Shown: piece after piece, positions 1 to 10,272 of the stretch
Numbering within the stretch: position 1 is the stretch's first letter
Layout: each line of letters opens with the position of its first letter
Assembly: GCA_934338765.1 (NCBI GenBank)
Contig: CAKRHL010000062.1
Location: forward strand, 1-10,503
From: an uncultured Lachnospiraceae bacterium
Lineage (GTDB): Bacteria; Bacillota; Clostridia; Lachnospirales; Lachnospiraceae
Direction: 5' to 3'
Length of the DNA: 10,503 nt
The notes under the pieces: model-generated
Told to the model about the DNA's origin: nothing
Database searches by the model: none
Seen by the model: the letters and a program-made list of their open reading frames with translations, nothing else
Made by a program: the position numbers and the translations under genes

Positions 1-810
1 TACTAACACCCAGTCTGTCCCGGAAATATCGCGGGTCACTACGACCTTATCACCAAGAGTCACAACCGAATCATCATCTTTTTTAATCTTGTCCGCCACC
101 TTCTTCAGAAACCCATCCGATGCATTGTCCACTGAGGTGGAAACCAGTCCGCTGTCACGGGACGCAAGAATATCACCATTCACCTGATCCACAAGCAACG
201 ATTCTGCCCCCTGCATGGATACACTTGAATTTACAATGATATTCACGGAATCCAGAGAAAGACTTGTCGCCAGCACCCGGACATCATCGGGATCATCCAG
301 CATGCCACAGACACTGATCATCATATTGCCCTCGCTGTCCTCATACGCCTGGGTATAACCGGGGTTCATCCGGGTAAGACCCTCCTTGTACCAGATCTGC
401 TCTGTTGCCCCGTCATATTTCGTCTGATTCTCCGATGCCTGCATCACATTCCCCTTCGTGTCAGCAATATAAAAGCCGCCCACAAAGGCACTGTCCAGTC
501 CATAATAATCATCCAGCTTCCGCTGAAGCTGCTTCTGATCCTTAATAGCCCCTGAGCTTTCCAGGTCATACTTCACCGTCTTGACCTCGTCCAGCTTACG
601 GTTCAGCCATGCTTCGATCTGGCTGCTCTGATCCTTTGCCGATGTGCTCAAAAGGCTCTGGGATGAGGCCATAATATCAGCCTCTGACACATTATAAGCA
701 ATCGCGATCATTACAATCACCATAATGATCGTAACCGGAAGAGATACCCCCAGTATCTTTGCCCTCAAGCCCGGCCGCAGGTTTTTTCCCTTCATCTTAA
801 TTTTTTTCAT
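1..810 (-). CDS. Methyl-accepting chemotaxis protein, N-terminal part (runs off the left edge)
   Basis: This is the first 270 codons of a chemotaxis receptor, read on the minus strand from ATG at 810 and open through base 1. The protein begins MKKIKMKGKNLRPGLRAKIL. One hydrophobic membrane segment follows at about residues 19-41, then a long extracytoplasmic region with the look of a double-Cache ligand-binding domain: a helical stretch at about 45-90, then segments such as GGFYIADTKGNVMQAS, EQIWYKEGL and a late LASRDSGLV. In this family the missing part would hold a second membrane segment, a HAMP domain and the cytoplasmic signalling helices that contact CheA/CheW; none of that is visible here. 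AAGGAG at 822-827 lies 11 bases before the start. An in-frame ATG at 831 is an alternative start but has a poorer ribosome site. The ligand cannot be read from sequence. Confidence 0.85.
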   Translation of the reverse strand, partial: MKKIKMKGKNLRPGLRAKILGVSLPVTIIMVIVMIAIAYNVSEADIMASSQSLLSTSAKDQSSQIEAWLNRKLDEVKTVKYDLESSGAIKDQKQLQRKLDDYYGLDSAFVGGFYIADTKGNVMQASENQTKYDGATEQIWYKEGLTRMNPGYTQAYEDSEGNMMISVCGMLDDPDDVRVLATSLSLDSVNIIVNSSVSMQGAESLLVDQVNGDILASRDSGLVSTSVDNASDGFLKKVADKIKKDDDSVVTLGDKVVVTRDISGTDWVLV

Positions 811-1004: not shown

Positions 1005-1039
1005 AACAACAAAATCCAGATGCAAAGCATCTGGATTTT
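1005..1039 (-). terminator. Intrinsic terminator after the M56 (BlaR1-like) gene
   Basis: A 13-bp perfect stem (1027-1039 pairing with 1011-1023) closes a 3-base loop. On the minus strand the end of the stem gives TTTT, followed by GTTGTT. It starts 20 bases past the stop codon of the M56 gene, so it should end that transcript. It also isolates the chemotaxis receptor gene, which has its own promoter. A second inverted repeat, TTGTTCAC (981-988) and GTGAACAA (1002-1009), overlaps its T-rich tail. Confidence 0.85.
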
Positions 1040-1058: not shown

Positions 1059-3713
1059 TCAGTTCACCTTAATATTCGCTTTTACATCCCGGGTATCTCC
1101 GGTCTCTACATCGGTGAACTGTACCATCCACTGGTTTTTATGCTCCCAGTCCTCATAAAAAGCTGAAATTTTCTCGCCCTCTCGCAGCGATACCCGGCTT
1201 ATCTTCTCTCCTGCATAATTACGAATCACCCCATTCTCCGAAATATACATGGAATCCTCCCAGATGATCCCCTGCAATTTCCGAACAAATCTACGCTCTT
1301 TACAATCATAGATAAAACAGGTTTCCTCCCCTTCTTTCATCCTGCAGTATACCGCCACACAGGTATTCATTATTTTGCAGGATATGACAGCTTCTACCCC
1401 TGCATCCTGTTTCCGCATATCATATGTCTTTCCGTAAATGTAAAACTTGGTTTTATCTTTTCCGGAGCCCCTTTGGAACTGGTCCGCCGGAAAGCTGGTC
1501 CGTCCCACGGCATTTCCCAGTCCGTCATACCACTTGTCCTTATTCCGGCGAAAAATTCCCATCCCCGGATAATACCGCATCTGAGCATGTTTTCCCCCGA
1601 TATAGGTCAGCTCATACGTCACATAATTCGTTCTGACCCACTTTTTCGACCATAACTCATCCTCCGAATGATCCGGATCCGGTTTCTTCCGTCTCCGGTA
1701 ATATGTTTCCTCCAGCCACTCACTCACCTGCTTAAGCTGCCATTCGTCCAGTGTTCTGGTTCCAAACGCCTCATATCCGTCCATATGATAAGTGGCCCGG
1801 ATAGACACAAGCCCTTTGGTAAAATTCAGAATCTGTCCGCTTCCGGCGCTTTTCTTGTCTGAGGTTTCCATAAAGTCCGGATACATATCCTTCTTTCTCG
1901 ACTTTTCCGTCCGGTATGTATCATACAAAACCCCGTATGCTTCCCCCGTATTCGGATCAATCGCCTCCGGGTCATACGGCATATAAGAGATCATCCTGTG
2001 ACCGCTCTGATATGTTTCCGGCGTCGAAATCCCCGTATCCAGCTTGTAGGTTAAATCTTTCTGACATTTTACTCCCACCTCCGTCAGATACGCTTTATGG
2101 TTCTTATAATACCAGCATAGTTTCTCCGGTCCATAATTTGCCTCCATGACCGCTTTCGGAGAATCAAAATACGCTGCAAGCTTTTGACACAGTTGTTTCT
2201 GCTGTGTGGTTTTGCTAATTGCCATAACACTTTGCGCGTATATCTCATTCGAAATACGGATATCCTCTATCAAACCCTGATGTCTCGCCACAAGATAGTC
2301 CGGGTTTGTGCTATATTTCCAAATAACAATATCTGCTGATTTTAACTGCTCATCTATGTTCTTTGCATAATCATATGCCATAATATACAGCTTCACACCA
2401 AACCGCTTCCGCAGGATATCTCCATACCATCCCCACTGTGTCTCACCGGGAGCCGGAACATTTCCATCTGTATCAAGCACCCGGATCACCGGCAGCCCGT
2501 CTGACTCCTTCTGAGCATTATCTTTTTGATCTTCTGCCATCCCGGCTTTCCCGGAACCCGTTTTCCCGGTATCCTTTCCCGGATTTACAGCATTGGTCAG
2601 ACCAAAGATCCCCACTGCCAGGATCACAACCACTGCCGCTGCTCCGATCCATTTTGCATGCTTCCTGAACTTCATGACATGCTTTACTCTCCTCCGGGTG
2701 TCTGTCTCCCCAAAGGTCAGCATCCCCATCCCCGGGCTCCTCCGGTTTGTGGCAAATTGTAGCAAAGACTCGCTGTAGGCTGCCCGGATATCCTCCGGAC
2801 TATTCTGCAAAACATACTCGTCACAGCTCATTTCCATATCCCTGATCATCAGAAAATAAGACAGCCACACCAAAGGCTGGAACCAATATATGCTGCAGAG
2901 CAGAAACGCCGCCGCCTTTACCAGATTGTCCCGTCGGCGGATGTGATACCTTTCATGCCGGATAATATAATCCTTCTCCTGCTCCCCCAGACGGAAAGGA
3001 ATATAAATCCTCGGCGAAAGCAGTCCCATCACAAACGGAGACGGTATCGCATCGCATTCATATACATTGTCCTGCATACGGACCGCCGTCGCAACCCTCC
3101 CCTTCATCCTGAGATACAGGATAATATTTACAAACAGGATTACACACAAAACTACCAGCCAGAGATATGCTGCTCCGTATAATATCCTCCGAAGCAGCAC
3201 CGGAGAGAGTGCTTCCGTTTGGTTTGGAGATGTTTCCTCTGCCATATCACCGGACATATTATTACAGATATTGTCTGATTCTTTATCTGTATTTTTAACG
3301 GATTCATTCTGGGAAGCGGTCTGTAATTTTGCTGATGAATCAGTAGAACCTGTCTGATCAGCCTGTCCGTCATTTGGTACAGTATCTGTCTGAGCTTTGT
3401 TTTGATCATCCGAAGTACTCTTTTTCTGAGATGATTTTTTGCCGGTCATCCTGGCATTTTGCCATGAGACTCCCGTATACTTCTCCAGAGACTGCTCCAT
3501 CCGATCTGAGCTCTGCGGAAGCAGATTATATACACTGAATGGTGATGCAATTTTTGCAGGACATACCAGCTGTATCCCCACAATGATCCACAGAAGATAC
3601 GCATATTTCTTCGGCGCTTTCCCCAATAATATCCTCGCCAGAAGAACCAGTACGATCACGACCGAAGCATCAATCCCCATCTGTAAGATCCCCATAAATA
3701 ACCGAAATACCAT
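1059..3713 (-). CDS. BlaR1-like M56 membrane metalloprotease with solute-binding-protein-like C-terminal segment
   Basis: This is an 884-residue membrane sensor protease. Membrane segments are visible at about residues 14-31, 36-52, 174-200, 265-288 and 354-376. The zinc protease site is HERYH (253-257), with the downstream EMSCDEYVL (294-302) supplying the usual third ligand Glu; this is the M56/BlaR1 signature. In BlaR1 and MecR1 the outside domain binds beta-lactam and the protease relieves BlaI/MecI repression. Here no penicillin-binding SxxK...KTG domain is seen. Residues about 408-600 instead resemble parts of a lipoprotein-type solute-binding protein (RKRFGVKL, SADIVIWK, NYGPEKLCWYYKN, AYLTEVG, DPNTGEAYG). 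A beta-rich region of unknown type runs from about 625 to the end. Residues 66-170 form an unusually long Ser/Thr/Gln/Asp/Asn-rich linker. No blaI gene is adjacent. A G-rich ribosome site (GGGGGAGG) precedes the ATG closely. The protease assignment is firm; the ligand is unknown. Confidence 0.85.
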   Translation of the reverse strand: MVFRLFMGILQMGIDASVVIVLVLLARILLGKAPKKYAYLLWIIVGIQLVCPAKIASPFSVYNLLPQSSDRMEQSLEKYTGVSWQNARMTGKKSSQKKSTSDDQNKAQTDTVPNDGQADQTGSTDSSAKLQTASQNESVKNTDKESDNICNNMSGDMAEETSPNQTEALSPVLLRRILYGAAYLWLVVLCVILFVNIILYLRMKGRVATAVRMQDNVYECDAIPSPFVMGLLSPRIYIPFRLGEQEKDYIIRHERYHIRRRDNLVKAAAFLLCSIYWFQPLVWLSYFLMIRDMEMSCDEYVLQNSPEDIRAAYSESLLQFATNRRSPGMGMLTFGETDTRRRVKHVMKFRKHAKWIGAAAVVVILAVGIFGLTNAVNPGKDTGKTGSGKAGMAEDQKDNAQKESDGLPVIRVLDTDGNVPAPGETQWGWYGDILRKRFGVKLYIMAYDYAKNIDEQLKSADIVIWKYSTNPDYLVARHQGLIEDIRISNEIYAQSVMAISKTTQQKQLCQKLAAYFDSPKAVMEANYGPEKLCWYYKNHKAYLTEVGVKCQKDLTYKLDTGISTPETYQSGHRMISYMPYDPEAIDPNTGEAYGVLYDTYRTEKSRKKDMYPDFMETSDKKSAGSGQILNFTKGLVSIRATYHMDGYEAFGTRTLDEWQLKQVSEWLEETYYRRRKKPDPDHSEDELWSKKWVRTNYVTYELTYIGGKHAQMRYYPGMGIFRRNKDKWYDGLGNAVGRTSFPADQFQRGSGKDKTKFYIYGKTYDMRKQDAGVEAVISCKIMNTCVAVYCRMKEGEETCFIYDCKERRFVRKLQGIIWEDSMYISENGVIRNYAGEKISRVSLREGEKISAFYEDWEHKNQWMVQFTDVETGDTRDVKANIKVN

Positions 3714-3840
3714 ACGCCTCCCCCTATCTGTTTGTTTTATCCCATATCAGATTATGCTGCTGACATTTTATAACTGCCACGCATAACGCTTTGTAATCCC
3801 GCATAGAAACATATGAAAGTCTTTCCTTTTTATGTTGCAA

Positions 3841-3894
3841 GTTTATAATCATAAACCTTGTGTTTAGTTTACAATAATAGACCTGTATTGTCAA
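3841..3894 (-). promoter_or_regulatory. Promoter of the M56 gene with two operator-like dyads
   Basis: On the minus strand TTGACA (3889-3894) and TAAACT (3866-3871) are separated by 17 bases, a strong sigma-A-type promoter with a start near 3859. Two related 16-base partly palindromic sequences sit on it: GTTTACAATAATAGAC (3867-3882, between and over the -35/-10 boxes) and GTTTATAATCATAAAC (3841-3856, just past the start). They are identical at 13 of 16 positions and lie 26 bases apart. TTACA/TGTAA-type dyads placed like this are typical of BlaI/MecI-family operators, so a repressor of that family is the best guess. About 130 bases of leader follow without a repressor gene. Confidence 0.7.
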
Positions 3895-3923: not shown

Positions 3924-4841
3924 TTATCCGTACAATATTTGAAGCTTGCTGATAAAATCCTCAATAATAAAGCGTGAATTGATCGATGTGTATACTCTGA
4001 TCTGCGGACTGTTCTCCGGATAGCGATAAGAGGTATCCTCCTGTACCTCCGGTGCTTTGCAGTACATAAAGCTGCCGCAATTTGGTTCCAGGGTCACTCC
4101 TACCGCCGGGGAGTCTCCAAGCGACCAGCTCTCTCCCGCCGACCACGAGGCGTTTTCTGTTTCATAAAATGATATGAGATTTTCGTACAATAATCTGCCG
4201 ATCTCGCCATAAGGAGCGATCCGTCGTTGTATTTCTCCAAAACCAATATGCATGGTTCCGTAAACATTGTTGGGAATCAGCCATATATCTCCTCCACAGT
4301 GAAGCACTGTATTGGCCGCCTCCACATCATTTCCAAAATTAAATTCCCATCCCGGCTTCTCACAACCAATGGGATTGCCTCCAATGCAGACCACCGTCAT
4401 CCTGTCCACAATTTCAGACTTTGCCCGGATGGCTTCCGCCACATTTGTAACTGCCCCAATACATAAGACAAACAGTGGCTTGTCATCCTCCTTCATGGCC
4501 TCCCCGACGATAAACTGCGCTGCCTCTGTCATGGGTTCCCCATGATGCTCTGACATTTTGCCGGTCTGTCCCCGAAGCACCGGCACTTCTGCCCCCATCG
4601 CTTCCGTCACGCGACAGATCATCTCATAACTCTGCTCCATGCTTCCCTCTTCCACAAAATGTTCCGCACATATTCCCTTCACCTCAAGCATTTTACTCAT
4701 CAATGCCTGTGCGATCGCAAAAGGATCATCCGCCTCACAGGCGGCATCCGTATCAATGATCACTCGTCTTTTACGGTATTCCTGCACATGATAACGCAGG
4801 GAAGCTTTTCTCTGCTCCAGTGTAATTTTACCTGATGACAT
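3924..4841 (-). CDS. Nucleoside hydrolase-family protein (variant metal site)
   Basis: The protein fits the inosine-uridine-preferring nucleoside hydrolase fold, which splits the N-glycosidic bond of ribonucleosides using a Ca2+ held by an Asp cluster. The N-terminal metal motif reads DTDAACEADD (residues 30-39 from the chosen start), two residues longer than the textbook DTDPGxDD. EFNFGNDVEAAN (166-177) matches the family's second conserved block. The C-terminal block is GDSPAVG (242-248), where classical enzymes carry HD. The substrate may therefore differ from common nucleosides. I chose ATG at 4841 because AAGGAG (4848-4853) lies 6 bases before it. The longer reading from 4868 would overlap the upstream gene and has no ribosome site; an ATG at 4859 would overlap that gene's stop as ATGA. 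It is the third gene of an operon from the promoter near 6170. No convincing terminator follows it. Length is 305 residues, normal for the family. Confidence 0.8.
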   Translation of the reverse strand: MSSGKITLEQRKASLRYHVQEYRKRRVIIDTDAACEADDPFAIAQALMSKMLEVKGICAEHFVEEGSMEQSYEMICRVTEAMGAEVPVLRGQTGKMSEHHGEPMTEAAQFIVGEAMKEDDKPLFVLCIGAVTNVAEAIRAKSEIVDRMTVVCIGGNPIGCEKPGWEFNFGNDVEAANTVLHCGGDIWLIPNNVYGTMHIGFGEIQRRIAPYGEIGRLLYENLISFYETENASWSAGESWSLGDSPAVGVTLEPNCGSFMYCKAPEVQEDTSYRYPENSPQIRVYTSINSRFIIEDFISKLQILYG

Positions 4842-4847
4842 TTCCTG

Positions 4848-4853
4848 CTCCTT
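4848..4853 (-). promoter_or_regulatory. Ribosome binding site that decides the hydrolase start
   Basis: AAGGAG stands 6 bases before ATG 4841 and lies just beyond the upstream gene's TGA (4856-4858). It argues for the 305-residue form over the 314-residue form. Confidence 0.7.
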
Positions 4854-4855
4854 TA

Positions 4856-5821
4856 TCATTTCGCCCATGTTGTTTTATCCCGTTCTCCCTGATAATCAAA
4901 AAGTCCGTCATTTTTCTCCTCCAACGCTTTGATCATATGATAGGTGTATTCATTATAAGGGGTTAGGATCCCAAGCTCTTCTCCCATACGCATCAACGCA
5001 CCGGAAAACATGTCGATCTCCGTATGACGTCCCGCATCCAGATCCTGCAGGGTAGAATATCTCGCAGAAGCAGGAACCGCACTTCCTCTTCCGGATGTGC
5101 CCGCCATCTTGCTCATATCAATTCCTTTCGCTAATGCAATCTGCTCCAGTTCCCTGCGAAGCCCGTCACTGATGGCTTTCATATGTGTACTGTCACTGTA
5201 GCAGCCTACCCCCGCTCCCAGAATCGCCTGAGGAAGATTATTGCAGACATTCAGGCGAAACTTTCCCCATATCTCCTCCCGAATAAACTCCGTAGAGCGG
5301 AAATGAATCCCTGTGTCCGCAAAAAGGGACTCGATTGCATGTACCCTTTCACTGTCAAAAGGTGCCGCAAGCTCTCCAAAAATAATCCCCAGAGTAGTTT
5401 CCGGATTGAAATAATATCCATTTTCCTCTTTGTGGGATGCCACCTTGATCAGAGAACGAAGAACCCTGTCATCCCCGACCTGTTCTGCAATCAGTTCCTC
5501 GCTGTCTACGCCATTCATCAGGCTCATAACTGTTGTATGTTCCCCAACGATCGTCTTAATGCTTTCCAGCGCTCCCGGAAGAGAACCGTATTTCAATGAC
5601 ACAATAAGCAGATCAACATCCTTTGCCTCCTGCGGACTCCACACCTCCGGACGATAAACTTCATCATTGATCCGACAGCCGTCCTTTTTCAGCCTTTCCG
5701 CCCGTTCTCCCTCTGCGACCACACCCAGACGTATGTCCTTTTTGTGAGACATTCCCCAGATCACATAAGAACCAACTGCTCCTGCCCCTAATACGGCTAC
5801 TGATTTTATGTTCATAATCAC
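4856..5821 (-). CDS. Ketopantoate reductase-family (ApbA/PanE-like) NADPH oxidoreductase
   Basis: The 321-residue protein carries the layout of 2-dehydropantoate 2-reductase: an N-terminal Rossmann fold with GAGAVGS (residues 12-18), a DVDLLIVSLK strand (68-77), and MNGVDSEE (102-109) in place of the usual QNG loop. The C-terminal helical domain has the likely catalytic Lys in WGKFRLNVCNN (K187, with N191 and N195) and the signature STLQDLDAGRHTEID (256-270, E268). In pantothenate synthesis this fold reduces ketopantoate to pantoate, but many paralogues act on other 2-oxo acids. Its place between a small unknown gene and a nucleoside hydrolase suggests such a paralogue, so I give no gene symbol. 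The start is GTG at 5821 with AAAGGA seven bases upstream; ATG at 5815 is possible and would remove only two residues. The cofactor fold is confident, the substrate is not. Confidence 0.85.
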   Translation of the reverse strand: MIMNIKSVAVLGAGAVGSYVIWGMSHKKDIRLGVVAEGERAERLKKDGCRINDEVYRPEVWSPQEAKDVDLLIVSLKYGSLPGALESIKTIVGEHTTVMSLMNGVDSEELIAEQVGDDRVLRSLIKVASHKEENGYYFNPETTLGIIFGELAAPFDSERVHAIESLFADTGIHFRSTEFIREEIWGKFRLNVCNNLPQAILGAGVGCYSDSTHMKAISDGLRRELEQIALAKGIDMSKMAGTSGRGSAVPASARYSTLQDLDAGRHTEIDMFSGALMRMGEELGILTPYNEYTYHMIKALEEKNDGLFDYQGERDKTTWAK

Positions 5822-5869
5822 TCTACATTCCTTTCTCTTCCTGCTTGCTTTATGCTTTTTTCCGCCTTC

Positions 5870-6094
5870 TTAATTCTTTAGCTTTCCCTCTGCCAGATCC
5901 CGCTCTGTCATATAGTTGGTTGAAAATGCCGCATTACATTCTGTGATTTCCTTTGTCCCGTTAATATAATCTGCATACAGATCCCAAAGATCCATTCCTC
6001 CGTCCGCTTCCAGTCCATCATCGTCCGGCAGCCACTCCCGGATCAGGGCGATCCGCTCCTCTTTTGTTGTGTCTTTGATCAATGTTGATTTCAT
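5870..6094 (-). CDS. Small acidic protein of unknown function (74 aa)
   Basis: I do not recognise this protein. From ATG at 6094 it reads 74 residues beginning MKSTLIKDTTKEERIALIRE, then an acidic turn WLPDDDGLEADGGMDLW, then DLYADYINGTKEITECNAAF. It has no signal peptide or membrane segment and is likely cytosolic. AAAGGTGG (6101-6108) six bases before ATG 6094 decides the start; the frame extends to an ATG at 6136 (88 residues), which has no ribosome site. It is the first gene of the operon with the ketopantoate reductase-like and nucleoside hydrolase genes, 48 bases ahead of the former. One invariant-looking Cys and the GGMDLWDLY block are the most distinctive parts. It could be an accessory subunit or regulator of the operon's enzymes, but nothing in the sequence proves that. 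Confidence 0.7.
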   Translation of the reverse strand: MKSTLIKDTTKEERIALIREWLPDDDGLEADGGMDLWDLYADYINGTKEITECNAAFSTNYMTERDLAEGKLKN

Positions 6095-6166
6095 AATGAA
6101 CCACCTTTCGCTTTCCAGCATCAGCAGTATGTTCATACTGTTCTTATCATGTTGTCTTTATATAAT

Positions 6167-6195
6167 ATGATATTTTACCCTTTGACTTCTGTCAA
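6167..6195 (-). promoter_or_regulatory. Strong promoter of the small protein/reductase/hydrolase operon
   Basis: Minus-strand TTGACA (6190-6195) and TATCAT (6167-6172) are 17 bases apart, five of six consensus bases in the -10. The start should fall near 6160, about 65 bases before ATG 6094. The -35 box is half of an inverted repeat, TTGAC-ttct-GTCAA (6182-6195), a possible operator. The promoter begins 22 bases past the GH2 stop codon. I see no terminator in between, so transcription from the GH2 gene may also read in. Confidence 0.75.
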
Positions 6196-6216
6196 TAATC
6201 TATCCCGTTTTCATTT

Positions 6217-7920
6217 TCACCCCTTGTCATTGTCATAATAATTAGAATATCTTTTAAATATTTCGGTAACTCTTTCATATGCCGCTTTTGGTCTGCGATA
6301 TTCATCAACAATTCCCTTGTTATTCATTTCTCTCGGTCGTCCCGCGAACCATTCTCTGCTTACCCTTACGTCACAAAACTGCCAGATATATACGCCAAGA
6401 CATTCCGGAAATTCCAGACATTCTGTCACCTGCTCCGTCAGTGCTTCCGCCTGATACTCCTCGGTCCATTTTCCGTGATATGCATTATGACAGCCATACA
6501 GGGCACCTGCTCCAATCTCAGAAACAATAAATGGTTTTCCTTTACCCTTTCCATCCTCCTTGATCCATCCATATACCTCATCCAAATAATCCTTCACCGA
6601 TTTATCCACATACCATCCCGGATAAAGATTACAGGAAATCACATCCGGAAGATCAAAGCAGATATCCTGAAAAAACTTACAGCTTGCAAAAGTACATGGT
6701 CTGGTATCATCCATTTTTCGGATCAGGTCAAACTGTTTTTCGTAACATGAACGTCCAAATATCGTCTCACTGGCACATTCATTTAAAATTCCCCAAATAA
6801 AGATACTTGGATGATTATAATGATTCAAAATCATTTCCCGGATCACCGCTTCCGCCTGCGTCTCAAACAACGGATGCCTCATGCGGTCTTCTTCCAGACC
6901 ACGGGCATGATTTTCCTCCCAGACCAAAATCCCCAATTCGTCACATAGATCCAAAAAAATCTCATCATTGGGATAATGCGCCGTCCGTATTGAATTCGCC
7001 CCCATCTGTTGTATCAAAACAAGATCATTGTAAATTGTCTGATACGGAAGAGCACAGCCGTAATCCGGATGATCCTCATGCCGGCATACTCCTTTAATCC
7101 TCAGGCTTTTCCCGTTGAGCCGGATATTCTGTCCCTCAACACAGATTTCCCGAAATCCAAAGCGATCAATGATATCATCCAGAATTTTCTTTCCCCTTGC
7201 AGCCTGCAATTCCACCGAATATAACTGAGGATTCTCAGGACTCCATGGCTTCACATCATCTATTTCCAAATCCTTTTGAAGCTCATAATGCTCCTGTCCT
7301 GTCAACAAAATTTTCCATTCAAATACTGTATTTGTATTTCCAATCCGCCCTTTTACAGTAATTTCTTTTTCTTTGCACTGTCCTGTTTTCAGTACAGATA
7401 TTGCAGTACTGATCTGTGCATGCCACCTCCTATCCTTCATGTATGTCTTTACATGAACATACTCAAAATAAAGCTCATTTAACTCTTCTACAACAACAGG
7501 TCTTGACACACCTCCATAAGACATATAATCATTAGGCACATGAAGCGCACTCTCCTCATGAAACCGATTATCTGCCTTAATCTCCAGTATATGCTCTCCC
7601 GGCTGCACATCAGAAACGATCACAGAAAACGGTGTATATGCATTATAATGGTGTGCAATTTCTCTGCCATCCAGATATACCGTTGCTGTATGGCTGACGC
7701 CTTTACATTCTATCCGGATATCTCCCTGTGCCGTAAAATTTTTTCTAAAAATTCCTTCTCCCCTGTAATCAGCAAAAAGAGGATGATTCTCCCAACACCC
7801 CGGGGTTGCAAGCAGAAACTTTTGACCGGCATATCTCCCGGAACACGGTTCAAACTCCCATAAGCTCCCTGTCATTTCTGTCTGCTTTCTGATTTTATGT
7901 GTAGTAAACGTTCGAATCAT
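6217..7920 (-). CDS. Glycoside hydrolase family 2, beta-glucuronidase-like
   Basis: This 567-residue GH2 enzyme has the family's order: a sugar-binding jelly-roll domain (about 15-150), an immunoglobulin-like domain (about 150-260) and a TIM barrel (about 262-555). Acid/base is E381 in GILNECASE; nucleophile is E468 in FIVSEIGAG. NLYPGWYV (431-438), WTEEYQAEAL (485-494) and NNKGIVDEYRRPKAA (533-547) closely match the corresponding blocks of E. coli beta-glucuronidase. N533-N534-K535 keeps the NxK motif that contacts the uronic acid carboxylate. The stretch between VWEE and EAVIREM is short, so the large active-site loop of some gut enzymes is absent. No signal peptide is seen, so it should act inside the cell on imported glucuronides or oligosaccharides. 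A beta-galacturonidase or a related GH2 activity remains possible. AAGGGAG lies about 11 bases before the ATG. The upstream gene ends 45 bases away, suggesting a shared transcript. Confidence 0.88.
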   Translation of the reverse strand: MIRTFTTHKIRKQTEMTGSLWEFEPCSGRYAGQKFLLATPGCWENHPLFADYRGEGIFRKNFTAQGDIRIECKGVSHTATVYLDGREIAHHYNAYTPFSVIVSDVQPGEHILEIKADNRFHEESALHVPNDYMSYGGVSRPVVVEELNELYFEYVHVKTYMKDRRWHAQISTAISVLKTGQCKEKEITVKGRIGNTNTVFEWKILLTGQEHYELQKDLEIDDVKPWSPENPQLYSVELQAARGKKILDDIIDRFGFREICVEGQNIRLNGKSLRIKGVCRHEDHPDYGCALPYQTIYNDLVLIQQMGANSIRTAHYPNDEIFLDLCDELGILVWEENHARGLEEDRMRHPLFETQAEAVIREMILNHYNHPSIFIWGILNECASETIFGRSCYEKQFDLIRKMDDTRPCTFASCKFFQDICFDLPDVISCNLYPGWYVDKSVKDYLDEVYGWIKEDGKGKGKPFIVSEIGAGALYGCHNAYHGKWTEEYQAEALTEQVTECLEFPECLGVYIWQFCDVRVSREWFAGRPREMNNKGIVDEYRRPKAAYERVTEIFKRYSNYYDNDKG

Positions 7921-7965: not shown

Positions 7966-8775
7966 TTATACCGACAAGCCGAAGGAACGCAGTTTCTCCG
8001 TATTTTTTCTTTTACGACGTTCCATTTCCTCCATGGCTTCGGCATATTTATCAGCATCCGCTAATATTTCATCCCACCCTGCCATTTTGAATTTCCAATA
8101 TCCTCCAAATTGTTCCGGAAGCTCTGCAATATATTCTTCCTTGTTTACAATAGCACTGCTATGCTCCGCTTGAAATATTTCCTCCCGAAGCAGCTTCTCG
8201 ACTTCCTCCTCTAGCTCTGCCCGGTTATTCACCCTGAGATACAGCTTATTTTCATCATTATCCTGTCCATACCGCATGAACAACTTAGCACAGGCATTTA
8301 AATTCACTGCTTTGTCAAACACCGGCAGCATCACCTTTCTGGTTTCCTCCAGTGCCCGCTGCATTGCCTCATGCAGACTTCCGGGCTCATCGGTATTATA
8401 CCCAAACGAGTACAATACTTCCTTCCGATATGTCTCATCACATTCAATCTTATTGGTGCGATAATAAAACTGAAACAAATTCCACAATACGTCATTGTTT
8501 CGGGAAGGTACTATTGAAAAGTCTATAGCATATGCACGATATACCGTTGCCACACCTCCAAGAATCTGAAACGCCTTATACTGGGGTCCATTTGCACTCT
8601 CCATGCAAAATTCCGTTTTGCAGGTCAATATATGGATAATTTCTCCACCTTCTACTACTCTGACCAAATAGGGCTGTCTTCCCTTGACTTTTACATACCC
8701 TTCTTCCTTTAATGCTTCCAGAAATACGTTCTTAAACTCCTTATTTAATGCTGCGACTGTATTTTGTGCTGCCAT
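7966..8775 (-). CDS. Uncharacterised 269-residue protein
   Basis: I do not recognise a firm family. The N-terminal third (FLEALKEEGYVKVKGRQPYLVRVVEGGEIIHILTC, about residues 18-52, split here only for description) loosely recalls DUF4304-like proteins, in which a helix and a GF/GY turn are followed by beta strands. The middle is mixed helix and strand, and the last 40 residues are strongly charged and probably helical, ending in RRKRKNTEKLRSFGLSV. There is no signal peptide or membrane segment, so it is likely cytosolic. Start ATG 8775 has AAAGGGG about ten bases upstream. It lies 57 bases past the remains of a histidine kinase gene and 45 bases before the GH2 gene, with which it is probably cotranscribed. 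I found no clear promoter of its own. Confidence 0.75.
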   Translation of the reverse strand: MAAQNTVAALNKEFKNVFLEALKEEGYVKVKGRQPYLVRVVEGGEIIHILTCKTEFCMESANGPQYKAFQILGGVATVYRAYAIDFSIVPSRNNDVLWNLFQFYYRTNKIECDETYRKEVLYSFGYNTDEPGSLHEAMQRALEETRKVMLPVFDKAVNLNACAKLFMRYGQDNDENKLYLRVNNRAELEEEVEKLLREEIFQAEHSSAIVNKEEYIAELPEQFGGYWKFKMAGWDEILADADKYAEAMEEMERRKRKNTEKLRSFGLSV

Positions 8776-8832: not shown

Positions 8833-9533
8833 TCATTTCAATGGTCCCAGCCCTGCTTTCATTTTTCCAAATAATAACAACACTGCCGCCATAACAATGC
8901 CGGCTCCGGTATCTGATACCTGTTTAACAGACAAAGTAATAATATCATAAAACAGGAAAACACATAACATCTCATCCGGGTTTTTGCATGATAACCGGCA
9001 ATCCGTTTTTCCACTGAACCGCATGAAATGTATTTTTTACACGAACAGACAACATTTCATGATATCCACTGATTTCAACAATAATTTTCCGATTACTCCT
9101 TAGCTTTTCGCAGGCTTCTATTGCATTGTCCAGCAAATTGCCAAATATTGTGGTAATATCGATAGCATCCAAAAAATTTAAGCTCACATTATCTACATGT
9201 ATTTCAAATTCTATTTCCTTTTCTGACATCATTGCCGTCCTATCTGTCAACAAAATATCCAAAATGGGATTCCCTGTATATTGCACCGGAATTAATGACT
9301 GCAATCTTCCTCCTATTTCCTCTGTATATTTTGTAACATCCTCTCTATAACCATTAAATGCATATTGCTGCTATTCCAAAAACAAAGCATGCCTTAATTC
9401 CAATATAAATACATCTTTTTTCAACTGCTCTATGATATCTTCCATCCATAAATCCAAAAAGAATCGTAATGACAATAAAGCATGACAGGCAGCTGCTGAA
9501 ATATAAAATCATATCCTGCATATAAATTTCCAT
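8833..9533 (-). pseudogene. Decayed AgrC-type sensor histidine kinase (GHKL), internally deleted and frameshifted
   Basis: Three pieces in three minus-strand frames add up to one broken kinase. Piece one (ATG at 9533, or 9521 with AGGATGG upstream, to a stop at 9354) gives membrane-like MILYFSSCLSCFIVITILFG and a second hydrophobic stretch, as at the start of AgrC. Piece two, in another frame from about 9370 to 8972, resumes at NGYREDVTKYTEEIGGRL, leads into the ATPase domain with N-box DITTIFGNLLDNAIEACEKL and SVRVKNTF, then meets a stop. Piece three (stop at 8833) gives LSVKQVSDTGAGIVMAAV, which fits the end of the same domain, but the expected HGxGL glycines are absent. Intact relatives are about 430 residues, so roughly 200 are missing: the remaining membrane segments and the phospho-acceptor His. 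The gene starts two to fourteen bases after the response regulator stop, the expected place for its partner kinase. It should be non-functional. Confidence 0.82.
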
Positions 9534-9534
9534 C

Positions 9535-10272
9535 CTAAATATTATTATGTATAAATTCATTCATCTTTTCTTTAAACTTTACAGCCCTCTTTTGAGACAA
9601 GTTCAATATCTTTCCGTTATCCAAATAAATGTCATATCCCTGGATCTTTACAATATGCCTCAGGTTTACCAGACTGCCACGGGCATTGATCATAAATCCA
9701 TAGGCTGCCAATTCCGCAGCAAGCTTTTTCATTATATAAGAAAATTCATATTCTTCCTCCGCTAAGATCATCGCAATTCGGCGTTTCGATTTGATATATT
9801 CAAAATATACGATGTCTTTTAGCTTTAATTTTAATATGAGATATTCATCCCCCTTCCCATTCGAAATATTGTAAAAAATCTTTTCCGGATCTTCTGCCTG
9901 ATGAAATATATTTAACAGATCTAATATTTGATTTTCTAATTTTTCTTTTTGTACCGGCTTGCACAGATAAGAATGTGCATGGATATCATTGATAGCCTGC
10001 AGACAATATCTCTCATAACTTGTTGTATATATAATTTTTATAAGAGAAAATTTCCCTTTTAGTCTCCTGCCCAAATCAATTCCATTTACGTGTCCCATTG
10101 ATATATCCAGAATCGCAATATCCGCTTTCTCCGTCTGCTCCAGCAAGTCCATAGGAGACAGAAAGGTTTTCAAATCATAATTTACTTCATACCTCTGAAA
10201 GATATCTGAAAGAATATTAACCACTTTGTTCAAATCATTTATATCATCGTCACATGCAACAACATTTAACAA
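9535..10272 (-). CDS. AgrA/ComE-type LytTR response regulator
   Basis: The 245-residue protein has a receiver domain (about 1-120) with the acidic pair D9/D10, phospho-acceptor D56 in AILDISMG and conserved K105 in CKPV. A LytTR DNA-binding domain follows (about 143-240), with DIVYFEYIKSKRR and the typical FMINARGSLVNLRHI block. Such regulators bind short direct repeats upstream of target genes and are usually switched by an AgrC-like kinase responding to a peptide. All key residues look intact, but the partner kinase gene immediately downstream is broken, and no agrB or agrD gene is seen. The start is TTG at 10270-10272, chosen because AGGAGG (10281-10286) lies eight bases before it; no in-frame ATG near the N terminus is better placed. 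It sits downstream of rpsI, beyond that operon's terminator, as its own transcription unit. Confidence 0.88.
   Translation of the reverse strand: MLNVVACDDDINDLNKVVNILSDIFQRYEVNYDLKTFLSPMDLLEQTEKADIAILDISMGHVNGIDLGRRLKGKFSLIKIIYTTSYERYCLQAINDIHAHSYLCKPVQKEKLENQILDLLNIFHQAEDPEKIFYNISNGKGDEYLILKLKLKDIVYFEYIKSKRRIAMILAEEEYEFSYIMKKLAAELAAYGFMINARGSLVNLRHIVKIQGYDIYLDNGKILNLSQKRAVKFKEKMNEFIHNNI

Follow-up and report, generated by a model that had tools for sequence, protein, structure and literature searches.

An M56-family membrane protease of Lachnospiraceae with one lobe of a solute-binding protein in its outer part

The BlaR1 and MecR1 receptors of Staphylococcus aureus (structures 8exs and 8exp) combine a cytosolic HExxH...ExxxD protease with an extracellular C-terminal sensor, a penicillin-binding domain resembling class-D beta-lactamases, and their promoters are of the operator type. 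In Clostridium thermocellum, the repressor BlaI_0696 is encoded in an operon with two BlaR1s and binds paired inverted repeats of GTCTAT, and the promoters of its regulon carry two such repeats (PMC8457756). Binding-protein folds also occur in signalling, as the flytrap domains within the kinase BvgS or as CuaD, found with signalling genes; the output of these systems is a kinase or a two-component pathway. Here we describe a gene on the minus strand of a 10,503-nucleotide stretch of DNA (contig CAKRHL010000062.1; hereafter the window) from an uncultured Lachnospiraceae bacterium, which encodes an 884-residue protease of peptidase family M56. It resembles BlaR1/MecR1 in its protease, in the placing of its outer C-terminal part and in its promoter. 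Unlike in BlaR1/MecR1, however, the outer part is a binding-protein lobe followed by a further region (residues 601-884), neither blaI nor a beta-lactamase was found among the nine window open reading frames (ORFs) scanned, and the BlaR1 NCBIfam cut-off is missed (85.2 of 400 bits). Unlike in the BlaI_0696 system, a repressor would here act from elsewhere, and unlike in BvgS or CuaD, the output would be a site-specific protease and the domain is halved.

The original prediction, made from the letters alone, placed a shrunken family-1 solute-binding protein at 1914-2492 (-), on account of six short marks in order. This interval is indeed residues 408-600 of the 884-residue ORF at 1059-3713 (-), and all of the marks align. 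Thus, RKRFGVKL aligns with DKFNVKL and SADIVIWK with GDIVVFG of binding proteins, LIEDI with 'llldw' of their profile, AAYFDSPKAVMEANYGPEKL with NWLCTPEGR...EYGPK, CWYYKNHKAYLTEVG with the consensus cWdYdedgktyltelG, and DPNTGEAYG with NPDSNGETYN, in the same order as in binding proteins or their profile consensus. Residues 370-884 were searched against 397 genomes around the metagenome-assembled genome (MAG) that holds an orthologue (locus L001 of genome G001, uncultured Lachnospiraceae RUG13384). Matches at E ≤ 0.001 were obtained in 31 of the 397, the best outside the orthologue at E 3.3e-14. The matched open frames are mostly 550-660 residues long, a simple pattern finds a lipobox-like motif in 22 of the 29 ORFs matched, and a profile from 20 relatives matches the solved protein 9pmy ('Extracellular solute-binding protein family 1') at E 8.8e-11. 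These features mark the matched relatives as binding proteins of the lipoprotein type.

A profile of 27 such proteins was assembled from this search, which listed 41 matches with loci for 29 besides the orthologue (L007-L035); three ORFs were left out (L013 for an interruption, L024 for running off the contig, L031 for its odd start) and the protein on contig C19 of the MAG was added. The profile scores 88.6 bits on the whole M56 protein, in two colinear domains: profile positions 5-134 on residues 354-485 (20.5 bits) and 364-489 on residues 494-620 (67.6 bits). Before residue ~405 the first of these is poorly aligned, over the membrane helix and linker. Residues 376-884 alone reach 85.9 bits, while 2000 shuffles of the same stretch score 12.0 at most, so that chance short matches, which would have undone the prediction, are not what is seen. 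The 27-protein profile is not independent of the query, its members having been found with the query itself; the per-genome E-values are free of this problem. In a pairwise alignment with the 571-residue binding protein of the MAG, identity is 33% over 132 residues (E 2e-15) and 33% over 64 residues (E 2e-05), both E-values applying to a comparison with a single sequence. Profile searching thus bore the prediction out with a score far above the shuffles. In Pfam, neither the domain nor the three full-length binding-protein relatives scanned gave a match to a solute-binding family. With the region as query, the matches listed from a database of 5.8 billion proteins included no binding protein at E ≤ 0.01 and none with an alignment at E ≤ 0.001, and a PDB sequence search with residues 400-620 returned no binding protein at E ≤ 10. 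The homology is therefore seen only against close enough Lachnospiraceae proteins. Within that range, sequence comparison confirms, far beyond chance, that residues ~405-600 are homologous to family-1 solute-binding proteins, which have the type-2 periplasmic-binding fold.

What is retained is about half of such a protein. Nothing between residues 485 and 494 corresponds to profile positions 135-363, as the prediction of a missing central part required. Given the two ordered matches, the binding protein has lost its middle (229 profile positions) and its final portion, and some eight residues connect what remains. A two-lobed structure with a hinge is not found: with ~229 central positions absent, one compact lobe is predicted. 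Nor does a lipoprotein signal precede the domain, which follows a membrane helix, and no ABC (ATP-binding cassette) permease is found among the nine window ORFs scanned. In the models, the lobe resembles one lobe of the oligosaccharide-binding lipoproteins AlgQ1/AlgQ2, 5gub and NgtS, and by sequence it is related to the Lachnospiraceae proteins of this kind and, through the relatives' profile, to 9pmy; unlike them, it has no second lobe, no lipobox and no C-terminal part, and is fused to a protease. We consider this anatomy, in which part of the outer region is a single alpha/beta lobe, the remnant of a family-1 solute-binding protein that was captured and lost its other lobe by deletion, to be well supported. 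It shows a way for a two-lobed protein to be cut down to one lobe and yet be retained.

Conservation within the lobe was assessed with the 64 columns at which identity reaches at least 80% among 17 binding proteins (alignment A6). The window protein is identical at 26 of these, 25 of which are also identical in all eight orthologue rows. The kept columns (Q.GW, F.V, D.V, Y..A...G, YGP....W.Y and T..G) look structural, as if forming the core, while the changed motifs, which include QLAN..G, TRM, N-R-.-W and N..TW, may be those that line the ligand pocket. The ratio of nonsynonymous to synonymous substitution rates (dN/dS) between the window and L001, a single pair, is 0.41 for residues 406-600 (0.63 for 406-486 and 0.30 for 487-600), 0.09 for 166-375, 0.25 for 601-720 and 0.16 for 721-884. 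The lobe is still constrained, though more loosely than the protease.

The protease itself belongs to family M56. In a Pfam scan of the 884-residue protein, PF05569 (peptidase family M56) was the sole family above its cut-off (152.9 bits against 31), and it is matched by all seven members of alignment A1. Both zinc motifs, HExxH and ExxxD, are present; the protease looks competent, because HERYH and E294xxxD298 line up with those of BlaR1, whose motifs and topology we took from PMC9834060. Hydropathy places membrane segments at residues ~12-30, 38-56, 181-199 and 355-373 and, more weakly, at 264-282. On this BlaR1 topology, the loop of residues 57-176 would take the position of EL1, and by the same analogy all residues past 373 would be extracellular. 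The gene starts with ATG, with GGGGGAGG ahead of it at ~3717-3725 (-), and is probably monocistronic, because an inverted repeat followed by ATTTTG closes it. The gene and the gene order are shared with L001.

Residues 601-884, which the original prediction did not cover, are not binding-protein-like. They probably form a beta-rich extracellular region, to go by the model, and are perhaps the real sensor. Compared with the other M56 ORFs fetched, they show no relation (best E 0.18). A penicillin-binding domain was looked for by Pfam in the whole protein and separately in residues 400-620 and 601-884, with no match.

The promoter, likewise outside the prediction, suggests a connection to BlaI. 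Between 3894 and 3841 it reads TTGACA, six bases, dyad 1, ten bases, dyad 2 (Table 1). In the L001 orthologue the -35 box is identical, and none of three dyad changes falls within the GTYTA/TAAAC half-sites; past dyad 2 the L001 stretch differs and is ~100 bases shorter. The extra bases of the window, which lie within 3714-3840 (-) ahead of the M56 start, may be a leader or the trace of a blaI gene now lost. The pattern TTGAC-5..9-GTYTA-6..7-TARAC, devised after these promoters had been seen, has 17 distinct sites in all fetched DNA (~0.5 Mb on each strand, counting overlaps between loci, and enriched in BlaI-M56 loci through its selection) and none in 20 mononucleotide shuffles. Fifteen of the 17 each precede one of the 61 distinct blaI genes; the remaining two belong to the M56 gene and its orthologue. 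These 15 Lachnospiraceae BlaI loci, found among L054-L107 (for example L102, L104 and L107), place a GTYTA-N6/7-TARAC dyad in the interval from -35 to -10, and in many of them another dyad follows closely. Since its paired dyads resemble both those before blaI genes and the BlaI_0696 repeats, the M56 gene appears to be built like a BlaI target, with the paired dyads of a BlaI/M56 pair as putative operators.

Table 1. Features of the M56 gene, its product and its promoter in the window
Feature	Position	Strand	Basis
M56 protease gene, 884 residues	1059..3713	-	stop codon within range; ORF list
Ser/Gln/Thr/Asn/Asp-rich loop between membrane segments 2 and 3, residues 57-176	3186..3545	-	hydropathy and composition
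HERYH zinc motif, residues 253-257	2943..2957	-	aligns with HExxH of BlaR1 8exs
E294xxxD298, third zinc ligand motif	2820..2834	-	aligns with E242xxxD of BlaR1
Last membrane segment, residues 355-373	2595..2651	-	hydropathy
Binding-protein-like N-part, residues 406-486	2256..2498	-	profile up to position 134; pairwise 33% over 64 residues
Junction, residues ~486-493, ~229 profile positions (central lobe) missing	2235..2258	-	profile match
Binding-protein-like C-part, residues 493-600	1914..2237	-	profile 364-489, 67.6 bits; per-genome E to 3.3e-14
Residues 601-884 (284 residues)	1062..1913	-	no significant Pfam match; low-confidence model, strands predicted
-35 box TTGACA	3889..3894	-	sequence
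Operator-like dyad 1, GTCTATTATTGTAAAC	3867..3882	-	pattern comparison
-10 box TAAACT, overlapping right half of dyad 1, spacer 17	3866..3871	-	sequence
Operator-like dyad 2, GTTTATGATTATAAAC	3841..3856	-	pattern comparison
Inverted repeat then ATTTTG, probable terminator of M56 gene	1016..1034	-	sequence; absent from terminator-scan list

On balance we favour, with some reserve, the reading that the gene encodes an autoregulated BlaI/M56 receptor of Lachnospiraceae, whose outer part consists of a captured half binding-protein lobe and a probable beta-rich region. A ligand or partner would contact the lobe, the 601-884 region or both outside the cell, and the resulting change would pass through the last membrane helix. 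The protease would then cut a BlaI-family repressor encoded elsewhere in the genome, and the two dyads, once freed, would allow expression of the receptor's own gene and perhaps of others. The BlaI/M56 circuit is moderately supported, and the lobe is most likely a remodelled recognition or docking module, not a classical two-lobe flytrap.

Several observations weigh against this receptor reading. Regarding the fold, mean predicted local distance difference test (pLDDT) scores spread from 75.1 to 91.6 over five domain models, and although a single lobe resembling AlgQ1/AlgQ2, 5gub and NgtS was predicted, a Foldseek search with either model gave no match at E ≤ 0.001. Moreover, the structure alignments A4 and A6 used 17 of the 27 binding proteins as separate N and C fragments, with random subsets and trims tried until MAFFT set all fragments where the profile had placed them; because the model alignments held these fragments, the agreement in fold is not independent of the homology call. 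Regarding the lobe, 38 of the 64 conserved columns are changed, and this, together with its faster evolution relative to the protease, is compatible with a passive spacer. Regarding the repressor, blaI does not lie beside the M56 gene, the nine window ORFs scanned giving no BlaI match, and a PF03965 search of G001 matches contigs C12, C14 and C41 only, not C106, which holds the orthologue. The exact dyad pattern occurs in G001 only at the M56 promoter, with 48 weaker matches against 68 in a control, and a looser pattern with a -35 box shows no excess there, the M56 promoter being the sole exact match listed; a wider regulon is not seen, because dyad matches in G001 are no commoner than in the control. 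Finally, the BlaI gene on C14 has as its own promoter TTGAC and a TTCTA-N6-TAGAA dyad, whose half-sites are not GTYTA. This BlaI is nevertheless a candidate partner of the M56 protein. The C12 BlaI shares its contig with another M56 match, and contigs C14 and C41 are without an M56 match; the closest relative of the C14 BlaI lacks the dyad pattern, which four of the next seven relatives have. We note a BlaI gene at L043 2517-2885 (-), with no M56 match on its contig and its own TTGAC...TTCTA-N6-TAGAA promoter, as a possible partner.

The alternatives differ mainly in what the lobe does. It might be a passive spacer or structural relic, with sensing left to residues 601-884. In favour of this, residues 721-884 are more constrained than the lobe (dN/dS 0.16 against 0.41, for the one pair), and five M56 relatives scanned have in this position DUF4825, a match to DUF4829 below the cut-off, or no recognised domain. 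The lobe, however, is in frame in six orthologue clusters that are at least 78% identical pairwise, and the 25 well-conserved binding-protein columns preserved in all eight orthologue rows speak for more than a spacer, which we hold to be unlikely but worth keeping in view. The ligand pocket of solute-binding proteins lies between their two lobes. The original prediction was right about an M56 protease with a shrunken captured binding-protein domain; its proposal of a sensor for sugars, peptides or other small ligands fares less well in its simple form, because a whole lobe is lost. Retention of the ancestral transporter's binding of a sugar or other small ligand, as a trigger for the protease, would fit the homology of the reduced domain to oligosaccharide-type binding proteins and the YGP...CWYY block, T544 and G547 kept in all eight orthologue rows, but with one of two lobes present and the 38 changed columns taking in several motifs we find it doubtful. 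Equally tentative is a half-flytrap, in which the lobe and residues 601-884 form a composite pocket, the latter region replacing the lost lobe, and closure on a glycan or transporter activates the protease and frees a BlaI-type repressor; if true, this would be a new wiring of nutrient sensing to proteolytic derepression.

Binding-protein lobes contact permeases, and the lobe might instead dock onto another protein, such as a full-length paralogous binding protein or an ABC permease, with the protease then reporting the state of a transporter. In G001 the full 571-residue paralogue adjoins what look, by their sequences, like a DUF624-like gene and two permease-like genes. No transporter gene was found among the nine window ORFs scanned, however, and the L001 gene order is the same; we regard docking as rather improbable. 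An assembly artefact or chance short matches might be suspected, the relatives coming largely from metagenome assemblies. Chance and motif-spotting were ruled out by the profile score against shuffles and the colinear double matches, and an artefact by the same junction in six protein clusters and on a named MAG contig, which leaves this explanation with almost no weight. Our preferred reading thus remains the autoregulated receptor with a remodelled lobe. If a glycan or a transporter is what it senses, nutrient sensing would proceed by BlaI/M56 proteolysis.

The fusion is narrowly distributed. In the 5.8-billion-protein database, searches of which scored ~8000 candidates sharing most words in two cases and 469 in a third, the same junction is present in six clusters only (33, 2, 14, 462, 110 and 5 members; 626 in total), all with the M56 domain. 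A search of genome contigs gave one locus with an orthologue, L001, whose isolate RUG13384 is presumably of rumen origin, going by its name. A scan of viral contigs found no such fusion. In the searches made, the same fusion thus occurs elsewhere only as orthologues: among 63 HExxH ORFs, only the orthologue L003 exceeds 3.8 bits with the binding-protein profile. These were taken from the 30 best loci and 31 long matches of the Lachnospiraceae M56 scan, plus L002-L004 from G001, some genes occurring twice, and are far fewer than all M56 genes in the 397 genomes, 243 of which have an M56 match. As only orthologue clusters were found and no other case among the 63 M56-like ORFs, the capture looks recent and lineage-restricted. 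The combination of a BlaR1-type protease and half a binding protein was found nowhere else in the searches made, and such a fusion is not described in the titles and abstract openings of the literature searched. The fusion that the original prediction pointed to is real and unusual.

As to the origin of the lobe, the best matches are the C19 protein of the MAG and its 92% relative in G287. In a tree of the retained parts (five M56 and 27 binding-protein rows) the M56 branch is very long (2.85) and its placement unresolved, and therefore no donor is claimed. A separate gene for the second lobe was sought in the window and L001, where, the M56 gene aside, no frame of at least 40 residues scores above 2.8 bits. 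M56 receptors are common in Lachnospiraceae, and in this one an outer domain goes back to a transport protein. The outer regions of the five relatives scanned are DUF domains or hold nothing recognised, and this fusion, a small and testable protein, is a lead to what BlaR1-type receptors sense besides penicillin. Among the binding-protein loci, the gene at L040 ~1900-3166 lacks its N-terminal part and is fused to a repeated stretch of a frame that we take to be reductase-like, probably an assembly chimera of the MAG.

Several neighbouring genes deserve mention. A LytTR response regulator gene at 9535-10272 (-) is followed, where a kinase is expected, by short ORFs at 9354-9560, 8972-9304 (with a GHKL match) and 8833-9024 (-), so that the kinase gene looks broken. 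The ORFs at 7966-8775 (269 residues) and 5870-6136 (88 residues), both (-), have no significant Pfam or NCBIfam match; the former has a relative in L001. A tight run at 3924-7920 (-) encodes a GH2 glycosidase, the 88-residue ORF, a PanE/ApbA-like reductase and a nucleoside-hydrolase-like protein that overlaps the reductase by 13 bases. The same genes lie upstream of the M56 gene in L001, where the 88-residue ORF is below the length limit of the list and the reductase ORF looks shortened.
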